Shown one piece after another: positions 19,791-47,918 of a stretch of DNA of 64,000 bases (position 1 is the first letter of the stretch; every line of letters begins with the position of its first letter). This DNA comes from Flagellimonas profundi (GTDB lineage Bacteria; Bacteroidota; Bacteroidia; Flavobacteriales; Flavobacteriaceae). Below the pieces are notes generated by a model. It was not told where the DNA came from and ran no database searches. It saw only the letters and a program-made list of their open reading frames with translations. The stretch spans positions 1 through 64,000 of the forward strand of contig NZ_JAFLNM010000003.1 of NCBI RefSeq assembly GCF_017313275.1. The letters run 5' to 3'. The position numbers and the translations under genes were made by a program.

Positions 19791-19802
19791 AAAAAAATGA
19801 TG
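19785..19802 (+). repeat. recurring island motif (variant)
   Basis: AAGTTCAAAAAAATGATG, the motif following the palindrome end CCGTTACCA; the second half is degenerate. Confidence 0.45.
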
Positions 19803-19863
19803 TGATGCAGGTCATTGTTTTTTCTAAACTCCGAAAATATTTTTATCAAATAATAACGGTAAA

Positions 19864-20247
19864 ATGTCTCGGAGGTTTTTCACATACATGGCTGTAGCAT
19901 TCATAGCTTTATTCGCCTTTTCCAATTGTAGTGGCGATGACTCATTTGAATTTTCACCAGACCCTACATGTGGTCGAAATATCAACTTCATCGTTGAAGT
20001 AATACCCCAAGGAGCTGGAATTGTCACTAGATCCGAATATGTCAATTCATTTGGGCTAAACGGGTTAATGCCCTTTCAGGTTATCGAATACTTTGCCATT
20101 CCTACAGATGGGTATCAGTTCATAAAATGGGACTTGGCTCCAATAGCGGATAGGGAAGAAAATCCCATTTCCTTGATTCCTTGTGATATAAACCCTGTTT
20201 ATACCACTATAAGGATTAAGGCCATTTTTGAAATCATAGAAGAATAA
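19864..20247 (+). CDS. small predicted lipoprotein, unknown function
   Basis: 127 aa. Signal sequence FTYMAVAFIALFAFSNCSGDD with lipobox-like SNC (Cys about 22), then a small beta-rich domain with two further Cys (PTCGRNIN and IPCDINP) and a GYQFIKWDLAP segment like bacterial InlB-type repeat domains. Expected to be anchored in the outer membrane or periplasm. I recognise no family beyond this. It lies between a cassette-like palindrome and long direct repeat copy B. Confidence 0.65.
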   Translation: MSRRFFTYMAVAFIALFAFSNCSGDDSFEFSPDPTCGRNINFIVEVIPQGAGIVTRSEYVNSFGLNGLMPFQVIEYFAIPTDGYQFIKWDLAPIADREENPISLIPCDINPVYTTIRIKAIFEIIEE

Positions 20248-25392: not shown

Positions 25393-28300
25393 TCAACAGG
25401 ACACAAAGGAAAAATCACCTCCCATCATGGCAATAAGGTTTTCCACTCCGGCCATTCCACTGCCAACTGGTCCTAAACTTGAATATGTAATTTCCTTGTA
25501 CACACTACACGCCAATCCTTGCATGGCATGGACTACCTGATCGTCCAAGTTGGAAGCATCCATTAAAATGATAGCTTCAGAAGCATATGCGTAGAGTTTA
25601 ACAAGGGTAACACTGTATGCCGCAACAATGCCGAGTGCCATTCCCCCTCCTGTAACAATCATCATATTACCCAATGCAGCAACTACTTTTTGATATTCGT
25701 CCACCACAGATTGAAGATGCTCTAGTTGAAGTTGAACCGATTCACCTCCTCCCCCGGTCATGTCAGGTAAAACGCCGAACAGCTCCCCATAGTTTCCATC
25801 AATATTCCAAAAAGCCTTCTTTTTAGCTTGAGCATCGAAAAAATTGTAGTCGCCCCCTCGATGTATATATTCCCTGAAATAATTGTAATCATCACCTAGA
25901 AAATCCTGGGATATGGTTTCCCGAATATCCGCTGCCTGACTATATTTAAGAGGAAGCGCATCCAGTTCTGAATAGGTGCTTTGCGGAAAATTTGCCGCTT
26001 CCAACAAGGCAAGTTGTGCTGTTTTTTCGGCGTTGGCAGCAAACCAATTTTTACCGTTACGGGTAAGTGTTCGGTACTGGGCGGTACGCAGATAATCAAA
26101 TGAAACTTTTGACTCCTCGGAATACAATGCGGGCGTGAATCTTAATATGCCCACTCTCAATCCCTCGACATAGGTAGCTGAATTTTCGTTCACACTCTCT
26201 TCTATAGGCTGCATCATACTGAGCAACGGTGCAGGGTAGTCGAAGAACCCTTCTTGTAATTTGGCAACAGCCTCTCTTGAATTTCCGTCCAAATAAGGCT
26301 CCATCCAATTTCTGGTACTCAAAAGTGTCTGCAGATATTCCGAAAGTCGAACCGAGGTGGTCGCACCCGCTTTTTCAAATGCAATGGTCATGGAGCCCAA
26401 CAAAGCCTCGTGCACCTCCTGTACCATTTTTTTTGTAGGTTGGGCATAGTATTCCAATGCTTTATCAAAACCTGCCAGCACCCTCCGATTTTCCCTCTGA
26501 TTACCGATTTTCACATAGAGGTACAATCCAACCAGGCGCTTGCCCACAGCTGTTTCGGCAACCTCTGGAAATTGGTAGTCATCTTGAGCGGTGTGGGAAG
26601 TTTTAGTAAGGGAAACCTCAACTTGATGGTTGCCCTCTCTGTTCAGGGCATTATACGTAAATAAGTACGGGGCCAGCTCCAATTGCCCCAAGATGTTTTT
26701 GGTCTGCTCGATTACCGCCTCTTGGTCACTTGCTGGAATTTCAGTTATATCGATATTTTCCCGGAGGGAATCATAATATTTTTTATGATCATATACATTA
26801 AGATAGATTATGGGCGGACCTGATTCATATATTTCTTTGAACTGGGGAAGATATTTATCGTTATTATGTCCGTCCGTAGCGTACAATACCAAATCATTAC
26901 TGGTTTGCGCCGCCTTTAGATGGGTCGTATAAACGTTGGACCCTGTGGCCATCAATTCAATCCGTGCACTGGGATATATCTCCCTAATGTTTTGCTGCAT
27001 TTGGTCTAAAAAAGACTTGATACCGGTACCCCTATATTCTCTTGGCATACTCCCGGAAGTATCGAAAATGAGCAGTATTTTGGGAGCTATGATATTTTTT
27101 CGGAGCATTCCCCTAACCACAGTACCATTGTCCTCTATCTTGAAATTACCTGCCGAAAGCCCTTCTACAAGATTGCCCTCTGCATCTTTCGGAAACAACT
27201 CCAACTGTACTTCTGGAAATACCTTGGGATTTGCTTTCACCCCCATGGAAACGACTTGTTCCGGATTACCGGCTTGTTTTTCTTCACCATATACTTCCGA
27301 AAAAATAACAACTTCCTCAAAAACCTTTTCTCCTCCCAAAGTAATGGGTTCACCGACCACCGATCGTTCTTGAAGATATTCCGCATCCTTGTCCAAGTCC
27401 TGTAAAGCGATACTTGGTGTGTAGGTACTGATACTGTCTATTCCCTGACTTGCCTGCTCTTCAAAAGTGAGGTTGTTAAGGAAAGATATCTTTAGCTGGT
27501 TCCCTATTAATTCGGAAGCTTTGAAAGTTCCTTTGATCAATTCCTTTTCATTTCGCATGTCAAAGGAAGTAGTGCCCTTTACGGTAAGGGTCACCTCAAA
27601 ATCGTCCTCCTTGAATTTGGTGGTGTCCCTTACATTTTGATTTTTATTATCGGGATGCATTTTACCATATTCCACTTTAGGGTCGAATAAATGCAGGTAA
27701 ACATCTTCCTCACCATTTTTAAAGGTAACACCGGGAATGTTGTTGTTGCTCAACATGAATTTGGATTCACGGTCTTCCTTGCGCTGTTCCGGGGTGGTTT
27801 TCTGTAAAAGCGACTGGGCAAGTTCTCTGCCCCGTTCAACTACATTTTCCACTTCCGTTATCTTTCCATTGACCTCAGTTACCCCTAATTCTTTACGCCA
27901 TTTTTTTAGCTGTCTTTTACTGACCGGCAAATAAAAGCCTACATCATGCCTTTTAAATAGGATGTCCTTTGCCTGCTCTTCCGTCATTTCAATATGTTCT
28001 GTGATCACCTTGGCCTCAAATCCTGATTCAATCAGCATATTCTTAAGGATTTCGGCCTTTTCCCTAATGGTGGCCATCCCTGTTCGCAATGCACCTTCTA
28101 CCCCATACATGCCTCCATAGGTGGTCCGTTGGAAGTATCTGGCATCACTGGGCAAAAGCATAAACTCATCCCTTACAAAATCAAACATTGCTTTTGGGTC
28201 TTTTTGTTGAACCAACCTATCACGTTTGGCTTTATAATTATCAGGACTAAATTGGAGGGCATACAACATCTCTTCCCATGTCTTGAAAGGTGGGGCTCCA

Positions 28301-28440
28301 CTACCTTCCGGAATTTCTATAGCATTACCGTCATCACATCCTTGCAACAAAGGAAATAGACATAGACCTGCGCTGGTCAACATTATTTGTTGAAAAAACT
28401 CTCTTCTGGATGATAATCCGATCGTTTTGGAATCTTTCAT
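25393..28440 (-). CDS. large Tat-signal lipoprotein with VWA domain
   Basis: 1015 aa. The N-terminus has a Tat motif SRREFFQ followed by LTSAGLCLFPLLQGCDDGN, a lipobox (Cys about 35), so the protein probably folds in the cytoplasm and is then exported and lipidated. Residues about 455-600 form a von Willebrand A domain: KILLIFDTSGSM is the MIDAS Asp-x-Ser-x-Ser motif, with YATDGHNN downstream. The C-terminus contains a hydrophobic segment (GNMMIVTGGGMALGIVAAYSV, about residue 930). No chaperone or partner gene is adjacent. Role unknown; VWA lipoproteins often mediate surface adhesion or complex assembly. It begins the native sequence right of the island. Confidence 0.82.
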   Translation of the reverse strand: MKDSKTIGLSSRREFFQQIMLTSAGLCLFPLLQGCDDGNAIEIPEGSGAPPFKTWEEMLYALQFSPDNYKAKRDRLVQQKDPKAMFDFVRDEFMLLPSDARYFQRTTYGGMYGVEGALRTGMATIREKAEILKNMLIESGFEAKVITEHIEMTEEQAKDILFKRHDVGFYLPVSKRQLKKWRKELGVTEVNGKITEVENVVERGRELAQSLLQKTTPEQRKEDRESKFMLSNNNIPGVTFKNGEEDVYLHLFDPKVEYGKMHPDNKNQNVRDTTKFKEDDFEVTLTVKGTTSFDMRNEKELIKGTFKASELIGNQLKISFLNNLTFEEQASQGIDSISTYTPSIALQDLDKDAEYLQERSVVGEPITLGGEKVFEEVVIFSEVYGEEKQAGNPEQVVSMGVKANPKVFPEVQLELFPKDAEGNLVEGLSAGNFKIEDNGTVVRGMLRKNIIAPKILLIFDTSGSMPREYRGTGIKSFLDQMQQNIREIYPSARIELMATGSNVYTTHLKAAQTSNDLVLYATDGHNNDKYLPQFKEIYESGPPIIYLNVYDHKKYYDSLRENIDITEIPASDQEAVIEQTKNILGQLELAPYLFTYNALNREGNHQVEVSLTKTSHTAQDDYQFPEVAETAVGKRLVGLYLYVKIGNQRENRRVLAGFDKALEYYAQPTKKMVQEVHEALLGSMTIAFEKAGATTSVRLSEYLQTLLSTRNWMEPYLDGNSREAVAKLQEGFFDYPAPLLSMMQPIEESVNENSATYVEGLRVGILRFTPALYSEESKVSFDYLRTAQYRTLTRNGKNWFAANAEKTAQLALLEAANFPQSTYSELDALPLKYSQAADIRETISQDFLGDDYNYFREYIHRGGDYNFFDAQAKKKAFWNIDGNYGELFGVLPDMTGGGGESVQLQLEHLQSVVDEYQKVVAALGNMMIVTGGGMALGIVAAYSVTLVKLYAYASEAIILMDASNLDDQVVHAMQGLACSVYKEITYSSLGPVGSGMAGVENLIAMMGGDFSFVSC

Positions 28441-37117: not shown

Positions 37118-37903
37118 TCATTTTTTAAAAAAGGCATTTATTTTAGGGTCGGTCGATGCCACCAATTCTTCATAGGTCCCTTCGGCATAGTTGATTCCAT
37201 CGACCAACAAAATCATTCTTTCGGAGATTACCCTAGCACAATCAACATCGTGTGTGATAATCAATGCAGATGTCCCATATTTTTTTTGAATGCTCCTCAT
37301 AAGTCCAATAATTTCCTTAGCTGTTATGGGATCCAAACCACTGGTTGGTTCATCGTACAATATCAGCTTGGGCTTTAAAATAATGGCCCGGGCCAGTGCA
37401 ACACGCCTTTTCATACCTCCCGACAGTTCTTCGGGCATCAAATCCATGGTATGGGCCAAACCTACATTTTCCAAAGCTTCTTGAACCAGTGGCAAGGTAT
37501 CGGTAATCCCATCAAACTTTTTTCGGTGCCGCCTCATGGGAAACTCCAAGTTTTCCCTTACGGTCATGGAATCGTACAGGGCGCTGCCCTGAAAAAGAAA
37601 TCCGATTTCCGAGCGCAATTCATCCAAATCCACTTGATCCAAACTAGCTATATCTTCTCCCAAAACCTCTACCAATCCGCTATCCGGGGTCATTAATCCC
37701 ACCAGGCACTTGATCATAACCGATTTTCCCGAGCCAGATTTCCCCATCACCACCAAATTCTCGCCCTTGTGCAACATCATATTAAAACCATTCAATACAT
37801 GGTTATCGCCAAAACTCTTGTACAGGTCTTGTATCCGGACTACAACTTCTTCCGAAGATCTGTTGTTTTGAAGTGTCGCTATGTTTTCTTTTACATCCAT
37901 CAC
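37118..37903 (-). CDS. ABC transporter ATP-binding protein MlaF-like
   Basis: 261 aa ATPase: Walker A GKSGSGKSVM (about residues 54-63), Q-loop FLFQGSALYDSMTVRENL, signature LSGGMKRRVALARAI and Walker B LILYDEPTSGLDP, H-loop ITHD. GMKRR in the signature and the YDSMTVREN stretch after the Q-loop identify the MlaF class of lipid-transport ATPases. Middle gene of mlaE-mlaF-mlaD, overlapping mlaE by 4 nt. Confidence 0.93.
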   Translation of the reverse strand: MMDVKENIATLQNNRSSEEVVVRIQDLYKSFGDNHVLNGFNMMLHKGENLVVMGKSGSGKSVMIKCLVGLMTPDSGLVEVLGEDIASLDQVDLDELRSEIGFLFQGSALYDSMTVRENLEFPMRRHRKKFDGITDTLPLVQEALENVGLAHTMDLMPEELSGGMKRRVALARAIILKPKLILYDEPTSGLDPITAKEIIGLMRSIQKKYGTSALIITHDVDCARVISERMILLVDGINYAEGTYEELVASTDPKINAFFKK

Positions 37904-38682
37904 AGTTCATAAAAAATATCCGACACGAAAACAGCAATAAAATCAACCACAAACAATAGCAAGGAGGCCATTACCACAGCGGTATTTGCCGCGATTCCGA
38001 CACCGGCGGTGCCCCTACCCGTCTTGTAGCCCTTGTAACAACCGGTCAATCCAATAACAAATCCAAAGAAAAAGGACTTTATGGTGGCCGGCACCAAATC
38101 CCCATAGGACAAGGCATCAAAAACCGTATTAAAATACAAGGTAAAAGACACATTCCCTTTCATGAATTCGACCAAAGAGGAACCAAAAAGAGCTATTAAG
38201 TCTCCGAATACCACCAACAGGGGGAGCATGAGCGTAGCTGCCAAAATTCGCGTGACCACCAAATATTTAAACGGGTTGGTACCGGAAACCTCCATCGCAT
38301 CTATTTGCTCGGTTACCCGCATAGATCCCAACTCGGCCCCAAAACCAGATGCAATTTTTCCAGAACATATCAATGCAGTGATCACTGGACCAACTTCCCT
38401 GACTATGGAGATACCGACCATGTTCGGCATCCAGGAAACTGCACCAAACTCAATCAAGGTTGGCCTGGTCTGCAACGTTAGCACCAAACCGATGATAAAT
38501 CCGGTCGTGGCTACCAGTAATAAAGATCTGTTGCCAACTTGGTAGCTTTGCTTAAGCAATTCCTTAAACTCAAAAGGAGGTATTACCGCTTGTTTAAAAA
38601 AACGCACGGCGAAATAAGAAAGGTCTCCTATTTCGATAAAAAACTCCTTGGTCTTATTGATCATTTGCGCTGCAATAGCCAT
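37900..38682 (-). CDS. MlaE family lipid ABC transporter permease
   Basis: 260 aa with about five membrane helices and the MlaE signature: VATTGFIIGLVLTLQTRPTL, the EVGPVITALICSGKIASGFGAELGSM block, and the DAMEVSGTNPFKYLVVTR stretch. First gene of the minus-strand Mla-like lipid transport operon, which is expressed from a promoter with regulon site 4 upstream. Expected in the inner membrane, working with the ATPase and MCE protein. Confidence 0.93.
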   Translation of the reverse strand: MAIAAQMINKTKEFFIEIGDLSYFAVRFFKQAVIPPFEFKELLKQSYQVGNRSLLLVATTGFIIGLVLTLQTRPTLIEFGAVSWMPNMVGISIVREVGPVITALICSGKIASGFGAELGSMRVTEQIDAMEVSGTNPFKYLVVTRILAATLMLPLLVVFGDLIALFGSSLVEFMKGNVSFTLYFNTVFDALSYGDLVPATIKSFFFGFVIGLTGCYKGYKTGRGTAGVGIAANTAVVMASLLLFVVDFIAVFVSDIFYEL

Positions 38683-38735
38683 ATTTCATCGGATTTCGGC
38701 CTAATCAAAAATAAGTTTGTTGTGCTTACTTTCAT

Positions 38736-38749
38736 ATGACCAATATCAT
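38736..38749 (-). promoter_or_regulatory. Crp/Fnr-type palindrome of the mlaEFD-like operon (site 4)
   Basis: ATGACCAATATCAT, centre 38742.5. Minus-strand -7 element TATTTTTG (38713-38706), an exact consensus, centre 38709.5: 33 nt apart. Divergent to site 5. Confidence 0.7.
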
Positions 38750-39307: not shown

Positions 39308-39321
39308 TTGAGTAATATCAT
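39308..39321 (+). promoter_or_regulatory. Crp/Fnr-type palindrome of the TerB-deoC-deoD operon (site 6)
   Basis: TTGAGTAATATCAT, core TGA-N6-TCA (39309-39320), centre 39314.5. The -7 box TACTTTTA (39344-39351), centre 39347.5, is 33 nt away. ATG at 39374. Confidence 0.55.
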
Positions 39322-39373
39322 AAAAATTAAGAAGCATTAGTTCTACTTTTAATAAGAACTAAAACATAATGGT

Positions 39374-39778
39374 ATGCTCAATTCTGAAAAAATAGGAAAC
39401 GAATTCTACCAAAGCCTTGGAAAATTATTCTATGCCGTGGCCATGGCCGATAATAATGTCCGCCCCAAAGAAGTTAAAAGATTAAGGGAATATGTGCGGC
39501 AACATTGGTTGGAGGTAGACAAGTTTGAAGATGAATTCCATACCGATGCTGCCTATCAAATAGAGATTGTTTTTGATTGGTTGGAAGGTGAGGAAAAAGA
39601 CGGGGAAGAATACTTTAAAGAGTTTAAGGAGTTCTATATGGAACATCACGAAAAATTTCCTGAAACCATCAAAAAGCTGATTGTAGAAACCGCTGAATCC
39701 ATTGCGAGTGCCTTTGCTGGAAAAAATAGATCGGAGATGTTGACTATATTTAAGCTCAAACAGCTCTTTAACCACTAA
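39374..39778 (+). CDS. TerB-like (tellurite resistance/DjlA-type) helical protein
   Basis: 134 aa, all-helical and acidic. LGKLFYAVAMADNNVRPKEVKRLREYV resembles the TerB/DjlA N-terminal metal-binding helical repeat, in which conserved Asp and Glu residues bind a divalent ion. Role in this organism is unknown, and tellurite resistance is only a family label. First gene of a tightly packed operon with deoC (1-nt gap) and deoD. Confidence 0.72.
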   Translation: MLNSEKIGNEFYQSLGKLFYAVAMADNNVRPKEVKRLREYVRQHWLEVDKFEDEFHTDAAYQIEIVFDWLEGEEKDGEEYFKEFKEFYMEHHEKFPETIKKLIVETAESIASAFAGKNRSEMLTIFKLKQLFNH

Positions 39779-41138: not shown

Positions 41139-42857
41139 TCAACAATTGGCGCTTTTATTTAGATGGCAGGCCTGCAAAACTTGATCGGCCTTACTACCAT
41201 CCCTATAAATGGTTATTCCCTTGAGACCGTACTTCCAGGCCGTCATGTAAATATCCGAAACGGTTTCTTTGGAGGTGCTTTTTGCCAGATTAATCGTTTT
41301 GGAAACGGCATTGTCCGTATATTTTTGGAAAGCTTGTTGGTGTTTTAAGTGGTATTCCCATGGAATCTCCAAACTTGTTTCGAACACTTTTTTCACCTTT
41401 TTCGGCATATGTTCCAACTGTTGTATACTTCCAGTATGGAGCACTTCATTTTTCACCTGATCTGTCCATAATCCCAATGCTTGCATTTTACCAACAAAAA
41501 GCGGATTCACCTCCATTTGCGTTTGATTATCCAATATACCAACACGTTTGTAAGCCAAGGCATATAAGGGCTCAATGGAATACGATGTGTCAGCAATCAC
41601 AGAAATGCTCCCTGTTGGTGCAATACTGTTACAAGTAGCATTTCGCATGGGTTTATTTGGGTAGAAAATACTTTTTTTCCAATTGGGAAACTCGCCCCGT
41701 TCCTTAGCTAATTCAGCTGAGGCCATATAACTCTTTGATTGAATAAACCGCATTACCTCTTCACCGAGGGAAATGGCTTCTTCAGAGGCATAGGGTATGT
41801 TGAGCAATACCAACATTTCTGCCCAGCCCATTACACCAAGCCCCACTTTTCTATTGTTTTTTGTTATTGCTGCTATCTGTGGAAGCAAATAATGGTTTAT
41901 CGATATAATGTTGTCCAAAAACCTAATGGCCAATGCAACGGTCCGTTCAAGCTTATTCCAATCCACTACCGTCCCTTCCGGTTCTTTTAATGTGACCATT
42001 TTGGATAGATTGATAGAGCCAAGATTACAGCTTTCATATTCGAACAATGGGACTTCTCCACAGGGGTTGGTACTTTGTATTTTACCAATTTCGGCCACCG
42101 TATTATGTTTGTTTATCGCATCCAAGAAAATAAGGCCTGGATCTCCCGTGGCCCACGCTTGTGAAACTATTTGGTCCCAAAGCTTCTTGGCTTTGATGGT
42201 TTTTGCAATCTTTTTTGTTCTCGGATTCATCAACTTCCAATCTCTTTCATGTTGTACAGTCTCCATAAAATCATCCGTAATACCCACGGATAGATTAAAA
42301 TTATGCAAAGTATCCCCTGCTGTTTTTGCAAGGATGAACTCTTCAATATCTGGATGGTCTACATTTAATATACCCATGTTTGCCCCTCTCCGTTTTCCTC
42401 CTTGCCTTATATGTTCCGTTGCAGTATCATAAATTTTGATGAAGGCCATGGGGCCCGATGATACCCCTCCAGAAGATGAGACCATGTCACCTTTAGGCCG
42501 GAGTTGAGAAAAGTTATATCCTGTTCCTCCCCCGCTCTGATGAATCATAGCTGTATTTTTTAAGGTGGTAAATATGCTGCTCAGGCTATCTTCAACAGGT
42601 AGAACAAAGCAAGCGCTCAGCTGCCCATTGGGCAATCCTGCATTCATCAGTGTTGGCGAGTTCGGTAAAAAATAGAGATGGGTCAGCAGGTCATTAAACC
42701 TAACCTCCCACTTTTCTTTATCCTCGTTTTCGGCACTTGCCACATATTTGGCTACCCTACCAAAAAGTTGTTCCGGAGTTTCCATTACCTCATCTTCGGA
42801 ATTCTTTAGCAAATACCGGGCATTAAGTAATTGTAGGGCGTTTTTGGAAAGTTTCAT
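41139..42857 (-). CDS. nrdJ: adenosylcobalamin-dependent (class II) ribonucleotide reductase
   Basis: 572 aa. Reduces ribonucleotides using B12-derived radical chemistry and needs no oxygen. Visible: LPNSPTLMNAGLPNGQLSACFVLPVEDS (first redox Cys), QSGGGTGYNFSQLR, catalytic NPCGE (radical Cys with Asn and Glu), YESCNLGSIN (second redox Cys), PTGSISVIADTS and a C-terminal Cys pair (ACHLNKSANC). There is no ATP-cone, so it is a short form. The ATG at 42857 overlaps the upstream stop (ATGA); a longer in-frame start upstream would lie inside that gene. Last gene of a four-gene operon with site 7. Confidence 0.93.
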   Translation of the reverse strand: MKLSKNALQLLNARYLLKNSEDEVMETPEQLFGRVAKYVASAENEDKEKWEVRFNDLLTHLYFLPNSPTLMNAGLPNGQLSACFVLPVEDSLSSIFTTLKNTAMIHQSGGGTGYNFSQLRPKGDMVSSSGGVSSGPMAFIKIYDTATEHIRQGGKRRGANMGILNVDHPDIEEFILAKTAGDTLHNFNLSVGITDDFMETVQHERDWKLMNPRTKKIAKTIKAKKLWDQIVSQAWATGDPGLIFLDAINKHNTVAEIGKIQSTNPCGEVPLFEYESCNLGSINLSKMVTLKEPEGTVVDWNKLERTVALAIRFLDNIISINHYLLPQIAAITKNNRKVGLGVMGWAEMLVLLNIPYASEEAISLGEEVMRFIQSKSYMASAELAKERGEFPNWKKSIFYPNKPMRNATCNSIAPTGSISVIADTSYSIEPLYALAYKRVGILDNQTQMEVNPLFVGKMQALGLWTDQVKNEVLHTGSIQQLEHMPKKVKKVFETSLEIPWEYHLKHQQAFQKYTDNAVSKTINLAKSTSKETVSDIYMTAWKYGLKGITIYRDGSKADQVLQACHLNKSANC

Positions 42858-43882
42858 TTTGTTTTGAGTGACATCCCTGTTTTCTCTGTCAAAATTTCTT
42901 TTAATGCTTTGGTAGTGGTGGAGTCTATCAAGTTTAAAGCTCTTACACCACACAATTCCTTCACCATTCTTGCTCCCGCCAAAGTATTGGAAGCAACCCC
43001 TGTGACAATATCGGGCACCAGTTCAAAAGCCTTCATCAAACCATGAACAGCATAAGGGTCCGAAGCACTCAAAATGGTGCATTTAATATGTTCCCTAAGC
43101 GCATTTATGGCGACATCCCCATTATAAGGTTCCAAAGGGGACGCTCCAATTTCTATAATGGCAATATCGGCATCTTCCATTGCAATCCTACTGAGCATTT
43201 GATCAAGTTTTTCCTTGTACACCTCGGTAGGACAAATGGACGAAGGAAGTCCCACGTCCACAAAATCCATTATCTTGTCCGCCCCAACATCCTTGAAGGC
43301 CAAAATATCCTTATAACGACCAGCTCCAGTTAGTTTTGCACCGACCACTTTATAGCCTGCCTGCTTAAAAATGTTGGTCACTATTCGGGCAGAGGTTGTT
43401 TTACCGGCGGACATGGAGGTTCCCACAAACAGAATTACCGGGGTATTGAATGGAACCTTGGGGATGGGCTCAACAAAATCATCCATGGTTACCTTTTTGC
43501 CTTCCCTAACCGCATGGCCTTTGTAAATAATCTTGATCATTTTAGGAATAAACATGGACTTGGACGTTAGTTTCCCCAAAAGCCCGGCACCTGTAAGTAC
43601 CGTCATTTTTAGATCGTCCGTTACATTTCTCCAACTCCCTGTCGCTTCCAGAGTTGCATAACGTTCCCCCAATACGCCTACAATAAACTCACCAGCGATA
43701 ACCCCTCTCATCCTACCGTTTGGGAGTTCTATCTTCAAGCTCTCCCCTCCTTCGTTCAAAATTTCACAAACGACATAATCGCCAGTTTGCCATTGGTCCC
43801 TGGGCAACTCCTTTACTTGAAATCCTTTTTCCGCCAAATCGGAAATTCGGGTCAACGATGCGTAAATATATTTGTGGTCCAT
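42854..43882 (-). CDS. DUF1611 (DgcN-like) P-loop protein
   Basis: 342 aa with Walker A GTSMSAGKTTSAR (about residues 152-164), then VGAKLTGAGRYKD, and IIEIGASPLEPYNGDV, a BioD-like arrangement as in the DUF1611 family. Members (DgcN) act in D-glutamate catabolism, often with a racemase-like partner, but the N-terminal 140 residues here are an unrelated beta-rich domain and no racemase is adjacent. In this operon it sits between an M20 peptidase and the class II RNR. Exact reaction unknown. Confidence 0.72.
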   Translation of the reverse strand: MDHKYIYASLTRISDLAEKGFQVKELPRDQWQTGDYVVCEILNEGGESLKIELPNGRMRGVIAGEFIVGVLGERYATLEATGSWRNVTDDLKMTVLTGAGLLGKLTSKSMFIPKMIKIIYKGHAVREGKKVTMDDFVEPIPKVPFNTPVILFVGTSMSAGKTTSARIVTNIFKQAGYKVVGAKLTGAGRYKDILAFKDVGADKIMDFVDVGLPSSICPTEVYKEKLDQMLSRIAMEDADIAIIEIGASPLEPYNGDVAINALREHIKCTILSASDPYAVHGLMKAFELVPDIVTGVASNTLAGARMVKELCGVRALNLIDSTTTKALKEILTEKTGMSLKTK

Positions 43883-43893
43883 AATACAAAGTT

Positions 43894-45066
43894 TTAATTG
43901 TCCCCTACTTCGGCCAACATCAATAGGGCCAACAATGCTGTCCTAACCGGAAACTCGTCCAATAAAATATGTTCATGTTGGGCATGGGCCCCATCTCCCG
44001 TAGTACCCAACCCATCCAAGGTGGCGGTATATAAACTGGTGGTATTGCCATCCGAACCCCCACCGGCAGTTGCTTCCTCCAATTCCAACCCTAAAAGGGC
44101 TCCGTTCGCCTTTGCCAATTTCCAGAGCATCCGATTGCCCGGTGTATGCTCCATGGGAGGTCTTCCTATTCCCCCTTCTATGTGCACTTCCACATCTGGT
44201 AATGTAGGTTGGAGCGCAAGAATCTGTTTTGTTATCTGTTCACCATCTTTTTTGTTCAATACACGAACATCAACGACCGCCTTGCTTTCCGGTGCAATTA
44301 CATTGGGCGAAACACCACCTTCTATCATCCCGACATTTACGGTAATCCCCTTGTCAAAATCGTTCATAGCGTATAGGTGCTGTACTTGATGGGACAACTC
44401 CACAATGGCACTTGCCCCCTTTTGAGGGTCCAATCCTGCATGGGCAGCTTTCCCCTTTACGGTAATGGTAAAGCGGCCAAGGCCTTTTCTGGCGGTTTTC
44501 AGTTTACCCTTCAATCCCAACGGAGGCTCCATAACATATGCTCGTTCGCACACCTTGGCCAATCGTTCAATGGCTTTTCTGGATTCCTTGCTTCCAATTT
44601 CTTCATCGGAATTGATCAGAATAACAGGAATCAATGGCAAGCTTAAATTCAATTTATCAATGGCCTTTAAAGCAAATATGATTTGGGTAAGCCCGGCTTT
44701 CATATCATAAATTCCGGGGCCGCTCATAATTGCGCCATCTTTTGTCAATGGCATCTCTTTAAGTGTATCCAGTTCCCAAACGGTATCACAATGGCCGATC
44801 ATTAACTGCAAAGCCTTGTTTTTATCCCTGTTTTTGGGTCTTGCATATAGGAAGCCACCTGTTTCCTTTCCTGGTACATGTAGCGTATAAAACCCTAATT
44901 TCTGCAATGCTTTCCCTATAAATTTCAAAATTTGATATTGGGACTTCGGGTCACGTGAAGGTGATTCCAACGATACGAGCTTCCCCAAAAAATCCAACAT
45001 TTCTTTCTCACTTGATTTGAGTTGATTCAAGATACCATCGGCCATATGTGTAACCTTGGAAGTCAT
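43894..45066 (-). CDS. M20 family metallopeptidase (carboxypeptidase G2-like)
   Basis: 390 aa. Two-zinc peptidase motifs are all visible: MIGHCDTVWE (His and Asp, about residue 90), GPGIYDMKAGL (Asp, about 122), NSDEEIGS (Glu-Glu, about 155), and a C-terminal GGGSDGN. The order and spacing, with a lid dimerisation domain between, fit the CPG2/ArgE subfamily that cleaves C-terminal Glu or acyl amino acids. No signal peptide, so probably cytoplasmic. Overlaps the flavin reductase gene by 4 nt. Confidence 0.9.
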   Translation of the reverse strand: MTSKVTHMADGILNQLKSSEKEMLDFLGKLVSLESPSRDPKSQYQILKFIGKALQKLGFYTLHVPGKETGGFLYARPKNRDKNKALQLMIGHCDTVWELDTLKEMPLTKDGAIMSGPGIYDMKAGLTQIIFALKAIDKLNLSLPLIPVILINSDEEIGSKESRKAIERLAKVCERAYVMEPPLGLKGKLKTARKGLGRFTITVKGKAAHAGLDPQKGASAIVELSHQVQHLYAMNDFDKGITVNVGMIEGGVSPNVIAPESKAVVDVRVLNKKDGEQITKQILALQPTLPDVEVHIEGGIGRPPMEHTPGNRMLWKLAKANGALLGLELEEATAGGGSDGNTTSLYTATLDGLGTTGDGAHAQHEHILLDEFPVRTALLALLMLAEVGDN

Positions 45067-45674
45067 CTTTTAAAATCTTTAGGAAAAGGAAAGTTGTAAG
45101 TTTCATCGATTTTGGCAAAACGACCATAAGAAATGTATGCTAGCAACGGGTTATTTTTCAATTGTGCCTGTTCGTCCTTTTCTGATACCCGCAAATACTC
45201 GTTACGCACGCACGCATGCTTAATACTCCCTGTAATCATACTGTTCTCACCAAAACCATCAATAATCTTGAACAACTCACATTCCAAGTACAAATAAGCG
45301 TTCTTGACCAAAGGAGCATCCATGGAGGTTGCTTTGATCAAGGGCAAAGCTTCAACAATCTGTTGGGACTTGGTCAATGCATCTGTTCTTGGAGAAGCAC
45401 TCAATGAAGTGGTGGTCACTTGGTCGGGAGTAGGAAAGCTGACCGTGAACTCACCCGTTTTTTTTACATTTTGATACGTACCGTGCCGTGGGGTACAAAC
45501 AAACCCAAAATAGTTGTCGAACCCAAGCGGAGTAACCATATGTTTTGGCGCAAGATCATACCCATCTTTCTCTTTGGTTCCAACAACAACCAAAGGAGCA
45601 ACGGTAAATATCCTATCCCAAATTGGATGCTGGATATCCAATGAAACGTATTTCTTGTCCTGAAGAATGTTCAT
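45063..45674 (-). CDS. flavin reductase family protein
   Basis: 203 aa with the FMN-binding flavin reductase fold: the GFDNYFGFVCTPRHGTYQNVKKTGEFTVSFP stretch (split-barrel core) is typical of the family. Such proteins reduce flavin with NAD(P)H or bind FMN tightly. First gene of the four-gene minus-strand operon ending in nrdJ, with site 7 upstream of its promoter, so it is the regulated head gene. Possible link: it supplies reduced flavin or electrons to a partner, but which one is unclear. Confidence 0.88.
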   Translation of the reverse strand: MNILQDKKYVSLDIQHPIWDRIFTVAPLVVVGTKEKDGYDLAPKHMVTPLGFDNYFGFVCTPRHGTYQNVKKTGEFTVSFPTPDQVTTTSLSASPRTDALTKSQQIVEALPLIKATSMDAPLVKNAYLYLECELFKIIDGFGENSMITGSIKHACVRNEYLRVSEKDEQAQLKNNPLLAYISYGRFAKIDETYNFPFPKDFKR

Positions 45675-45724
45675 AATATCCGTATTGCTATTTCTAAAAA
45701 TACGATTATGAATCAGGGTCTCCT

Positions 45725-45738
45725 ATGACCTAAATCAG
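45725..45738 (-). promoter_or_regulatory. Crp/Fnr-type palindrome of the flavin reductase-nrdJ operon (site 7)
   Basis: ATGACCTAAATCAG, centre 45731.5. Minus-strand -7 box TATTTTTA (45702-45695), centre 45698.5: 33 nt apart. ATG at 45674. Divergent to site 8. Confidence 0.7.
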
Positions 45739-45803
45739 GAACACCTTATGAAAACAATAGTGCTCCCACACTTAAAAAAACAACGGTTTCACAGGTAATT
45801 TGA

Positions 45804-45817
45804 ATGACCTAAATCAT
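45804..45817 (+). promoter_or_regulatory. Crp/Fnr-type palindrome of ftsH (site 8)
   Basis: ATGACCTAAATCAT, centre 45810.5. The -7 box TAGATTTG (45840-45847), exact consensus, centre 45843.5: 33 nt apart. ATG at 45891. Confidence 0.75.
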
Positions 45818-45890
45818 TTTAAATGATGGTATTGTAACCTAGATTTGAGATAATCCATAGGTATGGTTAAATCAACGCTTAAGGAAATAA

Positions 45891-47918
45891 ATGGATGTAA
45901 AAATGGATACCAAATCCGAATATAAAGGCAATAATGCCAATGGGAACAACAAGAACGAAAACCCTAAACCTCCCAAAGGAGGCAGTAATCTTACTTGGGT
46001 ATATTGGATATTGTTGATTTTCCTTATAGTTTTTCCATTTTTCACCAACACTATTGGAGCGTCCAAAGAAATTGCCTGGTCTAAATTCGAGGATGACCTT
46101 TTGGCCAAAAATGCTATTGAAAAGATTGTTGTCATCAACAAAGAGGTTGCGCAGATCTACATTAAAAAAAGTGTTTTGGACGATTCCGAATTCAAAAATG
46201 ACAATGACGGGCTATTCTCCTCAAACTCGGGACCCCAATATTACATCACCATTGGTTCAGTAGAAAGTTTCGAGAATAAATTACAACGTGCACAGGAAGA
46301 TGCAGGCATTTCTGAAAAAATTGATGTTAGATATGAAAACCGGACAGATATTGTTACCATTTTATCTTGGCTATTGCCCCTGGCCTTTTTCATATTTATC
46401 TGGGTATTTATGTTTCGCAGAATAGGCGGTGGAAAAGGAGGTAGCTCGATGTTCAATTTCGGCAAGTCCACGCCAAAACTTACCGAAATAGGCACCAAAA
46501 GCAAAGTGACCTTTAACGATATTGCCGGTCTTAAAGAAGCAAAGACCGAAGTAATGGAAGTTGTGGACTTCCTTAAAAACCCGGAGGACTACACCCGATT
46601 AGGTGCAAAAATCCCCAAAGGTGTTTTACTTGTTGGACCACCCGGAACCGGAAAGACCTTAATGGCCAAAGCTGTTGCCGGCGAGGCCCAAGTGCCTTTT
46701 TTCTCCATGTCGGGTTCCGAGTTTGTGGAGATGTTCGTGGGTGTGGGCGCATCACGTGTTCGTGACCTTTTCAAAAAAGCCAAGGCAAAAGCACCAAGCA
46801 TCATTTTTATTGATGAGATTGATGCCGTTGGCCGCTCCCGAGGCAAAATAAACGCCTTCCAAGCGAATGATGAACGCGAAAGCACTCTGAACCAACTACT
46901 TACCGAATTGGATGGATTCGGCGATAATACAGGTGTTATTGTTTTGGCCGCGACCAACCGACCCGATGTATTGGACAAAGCACTTTTACGACCGGGAAGG
47001 TTTGATCGCCATATTTATTTGGAACTCCCCAACCAAACGGAACGGGCAGAGATCTTTAAAGTGCACATTCGTTCCTTAAAACTTTCAAAAAATGTTGACA
47101 TCGAAGTTCTGGCCAAATTAAGTCCGGGATTCTCCGGAGCAGATATTGCCAATATTTGTAATGAGGCTGCCTTGATCGCGGCAAGACAAAAGAAAGACGA
47201 AGTGGAACAAGAGGATTTCATGGCTGCAAGAGACCGGGTTATTGTTGGAATGGAACGTAAAAGCAAGATTATCTCCCCCGAAGAAAAGGAAATCGTTGCT
47301 TATCATGAAGCTGGCCATGCCGTTGCCAGTTGGCACTTAAAACATGTGGATTCCCTTGTAAAGGTTTCCATCATCCCAAGGGGGAAATCCCTCGGTGCTG
47401 CATGGTATTTGCCGGAAGAACGTCAAATTGTGACCAAATCACAATTTATTGACCAAATGTGTGCTTCGCTTGGTGGACGGGCTGCAGAGGAAATTATTTT
47501 CAATGAAATCTCATCCGGCGCGCTTGACGATCTTGAAAAAGTGACCAAACAAGCCTATACCATGGTCTCCTACTATGGTTTGGACGAAGAGATAGGTCCT
47601 ATCAGCTTTTATGATTCCACTGGGGAAAACGAACGGTTACTTGGCAAACCTTATAGCGAGGAGATGGCCAAAAAAATTGATCATGAAGTACATAATTTGA
47701 TTATGTCCGCCTATGAACGAACCAAAAAATTATTGATAGCACATAAGAAAGAATTGGAAAATTTGGCACAATTGCTTCTAAAAAAAGAGGTCGTGGATAT
47801 AAATGACCTTGAAGAGCTTTTGGGCAAGCGCGGTGAAAAAATATTGAGCAAGGAAACTGAAAAGCCCAGCAAACCAAACTTGCTGATAAATTATTTTAAT
47901 ATTCTAAACAATAAATAA
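45891..47918 (+). CDS. ftsH: ATP-dependent zinc metalloprotease FtsH
   Basis: 675 aa membrane protease. A short acidic/Asn-rich N-terminus is followed by two membrane helices (about residues 35-52 and 155-172), with a periplasmic domain between. The AAA module has Walker A GPPGTGKT (about 247), Walker [12 protein letters not shown] and the SRH arginines ([18 protein letters not shown]), then the zinc site HEAGH (about 466-470) and distal Asp. The HEAGH-containing peptidase domain is complete. Flavobacteria normally carry a housekeeping ftsH, so with a regulon promoter this is probably a second, stress-induced copy. A small helical protein gene follows 55 nt later. Confidence 0.95.

Follow-up and report, generated by a model that had tools for sequence, protein, structure and literature searches.

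How might a single stretch of 216 nt set two quite different groups of genes going in opposite directions, and to what, if anything, would the two be answering together? The stretch lies at positions 45675-45890 of a 64-kb window (the whole of the DNA that was analyzed) in a Flagellimonas/Allomuricauda genome of 4.0 Mb, with a flavin reductase gene on the minus strand to its left and an ftsH gene on the plus strand to its right. A preliminary description had seen in it two divergent promoters, members of a regulon with one fixed spacing, and proposed neither a regulator nor a signal. Here, we offer a candidate for each.

Two divergent palindrome-box units

The 13-mer ATGACCTAAATCA has two perfect matches in the window, at 45725-45737 and 45804-45816. 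On the left, the 14-mer at 45725-45738 is ATGACCTAAATCAG, which read on the minus strand from its own promoter becomes CTGATTTAGGTCAT; on the right, the plus strand reads ATGACCTAAATCAT at 45804-45817. Each has its -7 box, TAGATTTG at 45840-45847 (plus strand) and TATTTTTA at 45702-45695 (minus strand), and on both sides, the centre of the palindrome lies 33 nt from the centre of the box (45810.5 to 45843.5 and 45731.5 to 45698.5), which is to say that 23 nt separate TGA-N6-TCA from the box. The coordinates thus bear out the geometry first described: a shared 13-mer and a -7 box 33 nt away, on opposite strands. The -7 consensus of Bacteroides is TANNTTTGY (PMC12632263, in the passage cited). 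Against TAnnTTTG, TAGATTTG agrees at 8 of 8 positions, defined or free, and the minus-strand box TATTTTTA has one mismatch, an A for the final G. We regard both palindromes as candidate FNR-type sites, one for the flavin reductase promoter, with a predicted start near 45691, and one for the ftsH promoter, where the sequence of the box would put the start near 45851; positions near 45690 and 45853, proposed earlier, lie within a few bases of these.

What do the two promoters serve? Leftward, all on the minus strand, the order is a flavin reductase-like gene (45063-45674; PF01613, 6.9e-16), an M20 family peptidase/deacylase overlapping it by 4 nt (43894-45066; Pfam and NCBIfam), a 342-aa P-loop protein (42854-43882), and nrdJ, the class II (adenosylcobalamin) ribonucleotide reductase (41139-42857; TIGR02504, 699 bits with a cut-off of 400). 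The longest nrdJ reading frame starts at 42953; the likely start is 42857, overlapping the stop of the preceding gene. The operon had been introduced as flavin reductase-nrdJ, and both of these genes are there, but the peptidase and the P-loop gene stand between them. The P-loop protein has a single NCBIfam match, weak and far under its cut-off, and a weak DUF1611 match, also below cut-off; it keeps its place after the flavin reductase and the peptidase in most of the related loci examined. Because the genome also holds a class I ribonucleotide reductase small subunit, nrdJ would be a second route, independent of oxygen. Rightward stands a membrane AAA+ protease with the AAA and peptidase M41 domains of FtsH (45891-47918, plus strand; TIGR01241, 772 bits with a cut-off of 600; PF00004 and PF01434). 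The gene had simply been called ftsH, and so it is, but it is the accessory second copy, ftsH2, 55% identical to the other copy at C4:174804.

Could two such units be an accident? With the strict pattern TGAY-N4-RTCA-N23-TAnnTTT, the intergenic region holds one match per strand; among 20,000 dinucleotide shuffles of it, 3 had any strict match, and none had one on each strand. In the window as a whole, there are 4 strict matches, and 200 shuffles of it gave a mean of 0.015 and a maximum of 1. A looser pattern finds 10 palindrome-box pairs in the window over spacings of 10-39, 5 of the 10 at spacing 23. The 13-mer alone, allowing up to three mismatches, is not enriched in the window (32 matches and 29.3 expected), for which reason we rejected it as a repeat in its own right. 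The signal is the palindrome with its fixed spacing and not the 13-mer by itself, and the pair of units is genuine, not chance. We also rejected promoters of the sigma-70 -35/-10 kind, which are the wrong promoter type and are present at chance level: a scan of the region, which does not model Bacteroidota promoters, gave nothing above chance (3 and 2.2 expected).

One spacing across the genome and its relatives

If the spacing matters, it ought to stand out elsewhere, and it does. We searched the genome for TGAYNNNNRTCA followed, after 8-38 nt, by TANNTTT (31 allowed spacings) and found 104 matches and 19 for the reversed pattern. Among the 100 pairs listed of these 104, 41 stand at spacing 23; at each of the 30 others, there are 0-5 pairs (59 in all), with a mean of 2.0. 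At about two pairs per spacing, some 2 of the 41 would be expected as background, and it is likely that some of the 41 are just that. The same 41 of 100 listed pairs place the palindrome at one fixed distance, its centre 33 nt from that of the box, as expected of a class II promoter with its activator near -41.5, and such a spacing is the signature of a class II activator of the CRP/FNR type. Two of the 41 sites (C4:19803 and C5:80215) are an identical copy, so the logo was built from the remaining 40; it reads MTGAY-NWWN-RTCAT, 22 nt, TAnnTTTR, with a T-rich stretch at the place of the -33 element. Letters fixed by the search are necessarily invariant; it set no constraint on the A/C and T at the outer ends, on the T-rich stretch, or on the A/G that follows TTT.

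Three further sites lie in the window. One precedes mlaE (37900-38682) at 38736-38749 on the minus strand, with its box at 38706-38713. Another, a TGAG variant outside the strict pattern (39308-39321, plus strand, box 39344-39351), precedes a 134-aa gene and then deoC and a nucleoside phosphorylase. The third (19802-19815, plus strand, box 19838-19845) precedes a 127-aa gene without a Pfam match. Some proteins here deserve a remark of their own. Similar proteins of 134-135 aa without a Pfam match are encoded at 39374-39778 of the window and at L041:2901-3308, each after a spacing-23 site; the site, spacer, and 127-aa gene at 19803-20247 recur identically at G000:C5:80215-80256, by recent duplication or as an assembly repeat; and at 25393-28440, there is a protein of 1015 aa with no Pfam match at 0.001.

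As the target of each of the 41 sites, we took the longest plausible first gene downstream and scanned all of them against Pfam, which gave a match in 30 of the 40 distinct first genes and none in ten. The targets include a COX1-FixO fusion (CcoN-CcoO, of the cbb3 oxidase), a cytochrome c, the small subunit of a NiFe hydrogenase, six universal stress proteins, an S30AE ribosome-hibernation factor, PPDK, a ferritin-like protein, thioredoxin, an old-yellow-enzyme homologue, MlaE, and the gene of an FNR-like regulator; we read by eye the radical-SAM target as HemN and the Pyr_redox_2 target as a sulfide:quinone reductase. A family 3 glycosidase (one among 41), OmpW, FadL, and ArsP fit low oxygen less plainly, and the site at C2:495332 has no convincing gene downstream. 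To judge from these annotations, the set reads as one of low-oxygen functions.

The regulon with fixed spacing, as first suggested, also holds beyond this genome. With the spacing set at 23 and the box ending in TTTR, 71 genomes of the genus hold 1665 matches and 25 of the reversed pattern, at least 8 per genome. The same pattern in the order gives 109 matches and 9 reversed in the 24 genomes with a match to the FNR-like regulator and 20 and 5 in the 23 without, which are mostly small genomes. In the class (197 genomes, box ending in TTTG), the 122 genomes with a match at 1e-30, a set that also includes frames of the REC-CRP type, give 556 and 8 reversed, and the 75 without give 132 and 8. The co-occurrence of regulator and site is therefore only partial; the surplus of sites where no FNR match exists speaks against a strict one-to-one link and may come from distant homologues or paralogues.

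The locus itself was compared in 26 flavin reductase loci from named genomes, leaving out L117, a 22%-identical clostridial match. A spacing-23 site lies within 150 nt of the flavin reductase in 22 of the 26, among them loci with as little as 55% protein identity; no spacing other than this occurs in more than 5 of them, and the rest of the 26 loci holds 32 matches in 269 kb. Four (L097, L102, L103, and L114) have no site in reach of the flavin reductase. Where ftsH diverges from it, in six of these loci, both units are kept (6 of 6), and the left box keeps the sequence TATTTTTA at spacing 23 in 5 of 6 divergent relatives and in the locus of [Muricauda] yonaguniensis (L095). That last locus is a special case: a single palindrome ATGACCTAAATCAT is placed for both promoters, flanked at spacing 23 by TATTTTTA in one direction and by TAGATTTG in the opposite one, and it looks like the product of a deletion between two 13-bp copies.

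On the ftsH2 side, where we counted as ftsH2 a second ftsH copy of at least 68% identity, the gene is present in 13 of the 71 genus genomes, the window genome included, and a spacing-23 site lies upstream in 12 of the 12 others (13 of 13 with the window genome). These counts overlap, six of the 12 genomes evidently being those of the six divergent loci. The site is within 120 nt of the start of the match in 8 of the 12; in G040, it is further out because the match there begins only with residue 142; in G027, G035, and G039, where perhaps a gene stands between, the distance is 441-448 nt. These last three genomes also have a gene of the REC-CRP type less than 2 kb from ftsH2 (G027:C2:1079332-1082743, G035:C1:1358249-1360884, and G039:C11:1164457-1168876). 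The earlier claim of two divergent promoters has thus fared well, in that site, box, and spacing of both are kept in relatives.

A candidate regulator and its cysteines

What protein might read these sites? The genome encodes three proteins with PF00325. The one that we think most likely, from its sequence and its setting, to be the regulator of both palindromes is an FNR-like protein of 229 aa found in that search (L054:3147-3836; G000:C3:815149-815835). Its gene sits in the densest cluster of sites, with a site of its own before it. The protein has PF00027, PF13545, and PF00325 above cut-off, a cNMP-binding-type sensor joined to a Crp helix-turn-helix; its best NCBIfam match is Fnr (PRK11161, 1.4e-32), at 113 bits, short of the cut-off of 228, and a comparison with the PDB gives first a Porphyromonas CRP/FNR protein (2gau) and next the FNR of Aliivibrio fischeri. 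All 71 genomes of the genus have an orthologue, and the protein is also matched in 24 of the 47 other genomes of the order (E<=1e-15). CRP3 (L060) was rejected as the main regulator since its recognition helix differs.

The cysteines of Escherichia coli FNR are Cys20, Cys23, Cys29, and Cys122. In the alignment, C5, C8, and C107 of our protein fall on FNR cysteines and N14 falls at the place of Cys29, so the four cysteines of E. coli FNR are not all there; in the recognition helix, the E and R are kept and the serine between them becomes I. Each of the 31 genus sequences has C5, C8, C54, and C107, and the two paralogues in the genome lack all four. For a wider set, we took our own protein, 20 homologues of the order, and 29 of the class or family, leaving out the other 30 uniform genus loci; the homologues were cut with up to 25 extra upstream residues and may include residues before the true start. 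C54 and C107 occur in 45 of the 45 with CxxC and neither in the 5 without, and as those five (L133-L137) are all of one genus, their joint loss counts as one event. This pattern suggests that CxxC, C54, and C107 are ligands of an iron-sulfur cluster; C54 and C107 would presumably be neighbours inside the sensor barrel of this fold. Read by eye, the class-level regulators L143-L166 carry one more N-terminal cysteine in 18 of 24 cases, C-x2-C-x8-C; our own protein and the flavobacterial ones lack it.

Discussion

Activation of the class II kind by CRP/FNR proteins is textbook matter, and we think it probable, from the arrangement of sites, targets, and cysteines, that an FNR-like class II activator serves both promoters and is switched on as oxygen or redox potential falls. 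Both palindromes would be operators of a dimeric activator of this family, bound with its centre some 41 bp before the expected start, next to the place of the -33 element. By itself, the -7 box would make a weak promoter; the bound activator would touch RNA polymerase and recruit a Bacteroidota sigma factor that needs only the -7 box. Falling oxygen (or redox potential) would cause the FNR-like protein to switch on a regulon of about 40 promoters. Leftward, through flavin reductase, M20 peptidase, P-loop protein, and nrdJ, this would provide for deoxynucleotide synthesis without oxygen, with NrdJ serving when oxygen is short; rightward, through FtsH2, it would provide for turnover of membrane proteins. 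Binding, activation, start sites, and the oxygen signal are all predicted here, and oxygen is proposed as the signal from the functions of the targets and the cysteines.

Perhaps a different protein uses the sites. A response regulator of REC-cNMP-HTH build (L038:12962-14035), once phosphorylated by the PAS histidine kinase whose gene immediately precedes its own, might be their main user, with the signal being that of the kinase. The recognition helix of this REC-CRP paralogue (C2:333037) is nearly identical (ETAIR and ESAIR), so it could bind the same sites; the kinase gene has a spacing-23 site of its own, and matches of the REC-CRP type accompany ftsH2 at less than 2 kb in G027, G035, and G039. 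We nevertheless consider it unlikely, because 11 of the 71 genus genomes have the FNR match as their sole CRP-type match (E<=1e-15) and yet contain 8-24 sites each (two of these, G014 and G029, are 75% and 71% complete), from which it follows that the paralogue is not needed. The tandem of PAS kinase and regulator (L038:12962-16586, in G000:C2) is perhaps a feed-forward branch of the regulon.

Might the sites instead be read by a CRP-type sensor of carbon supply, like MalR/Cur, or by a repressor? Flavobacteriales homologues of CRP/FNR have been predicted to be carbon sensors of the MalR/Cur kind (PMC8510549, in the part cited), and BT4338/Cur (MalR) of Bacteroides thetaiotaomicron, which regulates in answer to carbon limitation, is the closest relative in class among experimentally studied Bacteroidota proteins, a CRP-family activator whose fusA2 site, like ours, lies upstream of a Bacteroidota -7 box (PMC6989115). 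Its 22-bp motif, wwwTATGTTnTAnAACATAwww, and its carbohydrate genes (as given in the cited part of PMC3878776) set it apart: the motif is quite unlike MTGAY-N4-RTCAT, and most of our targets belong to respiration and stress, with a lone glycosidase among them. A repressor, for its part, would have no need of one fixed spacing. We regard either of these as very unlikely. That the resemblance is accidental or the pair a functionless repeat, the 13-mer being merely a duplicated stretch, is scarcely credible, for although the 13-mer alone shows no enrichment, not one of the shuffles held both units, the two copies are flanked by different sequence, each site varies among relatives independently of the other, and the flavin reductase and ftsH2 sites are conserved in 22 of 26 and 12 of 12 loci.

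The FNR-like activator that we prefer resembles the FNR of E. coli and A. fischeri (TTGAT-N4-ATCAA) in its CRP-type fold, its 14-bp palindrome with a centre near -41, its aligned CxxC and VCxIP cysteine, its E and R in the recognition helix, and the presence of cbb3 oxidase and universal stress proteins among the targets. It differs in the half-site, MTGAY, whose first letter is mostly A or C and rarely T, in the I for the aligned serine, in having no cysteine at the Cys29 position and an extra conserved C54, and in promoters that carry a -7 box TAnnTTTG in place of a -10. HcpR2 of Bacteroides and Porphyromonas is also an FNR-like regulator in Bacteroidota, but its motif is GTAACnnnnGTTAC, and its regulons, on the account in the cited part of PMC1274295, comprise nothing but hcp genes in most Bacteroides. 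PgRsp and CrpPg of Porphyromonas gingivalis belong to the CRP/FNR superfamily too, and PgRsp is called redox sensing; it is said to bind heme and is set apart by its description, which, in the part of PMC12040651 cited, gives no such regulon geometry. In the passages cited, the two closest cases from Bacteroidota, BT4338/Cur and HcpR2, differ from ours in motif, and among the matches listed from the open-access literature, no title describes a flavobacterial FNR regulon.

Might all of this be typical of the phylum? We put forward as a tentative idea, possible but somewhat doubtful, that Bacteroidota have an oxygen regulon of their own kind, in which an FNR-like sensor with a cluster on CxxC and the barrel cysteines C54 and C107 switches on -7-box promoters from a fixed site 33 nt upstream, those of nrdJ and a duplicated FtsH included. 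Proteobacterial FNR has three N-terminal cysteines plus one, whereas the set proposed for Bacteroidota would be CxxC, C54, and C107.

Flavobacteriia are very abundant marine bacteria, and to our knowledge, how they sense and respond to a shortage of oxygen is poorly described. A control circuit for that shortage looks widespread in the relatives of this organism. One rule (palindrome, 23 nt, -7 box) yields about 40 predicted promoters in this one genome and holds throughout the genus, so that the regulon can be read off any related genome; it comes with a candidate regulator whose unusual set of cysteines is directly testable, and the locus with which we began would be a compact two-way reporter for it, with a natural one-site version in [Muricauda] yonaguniensis.
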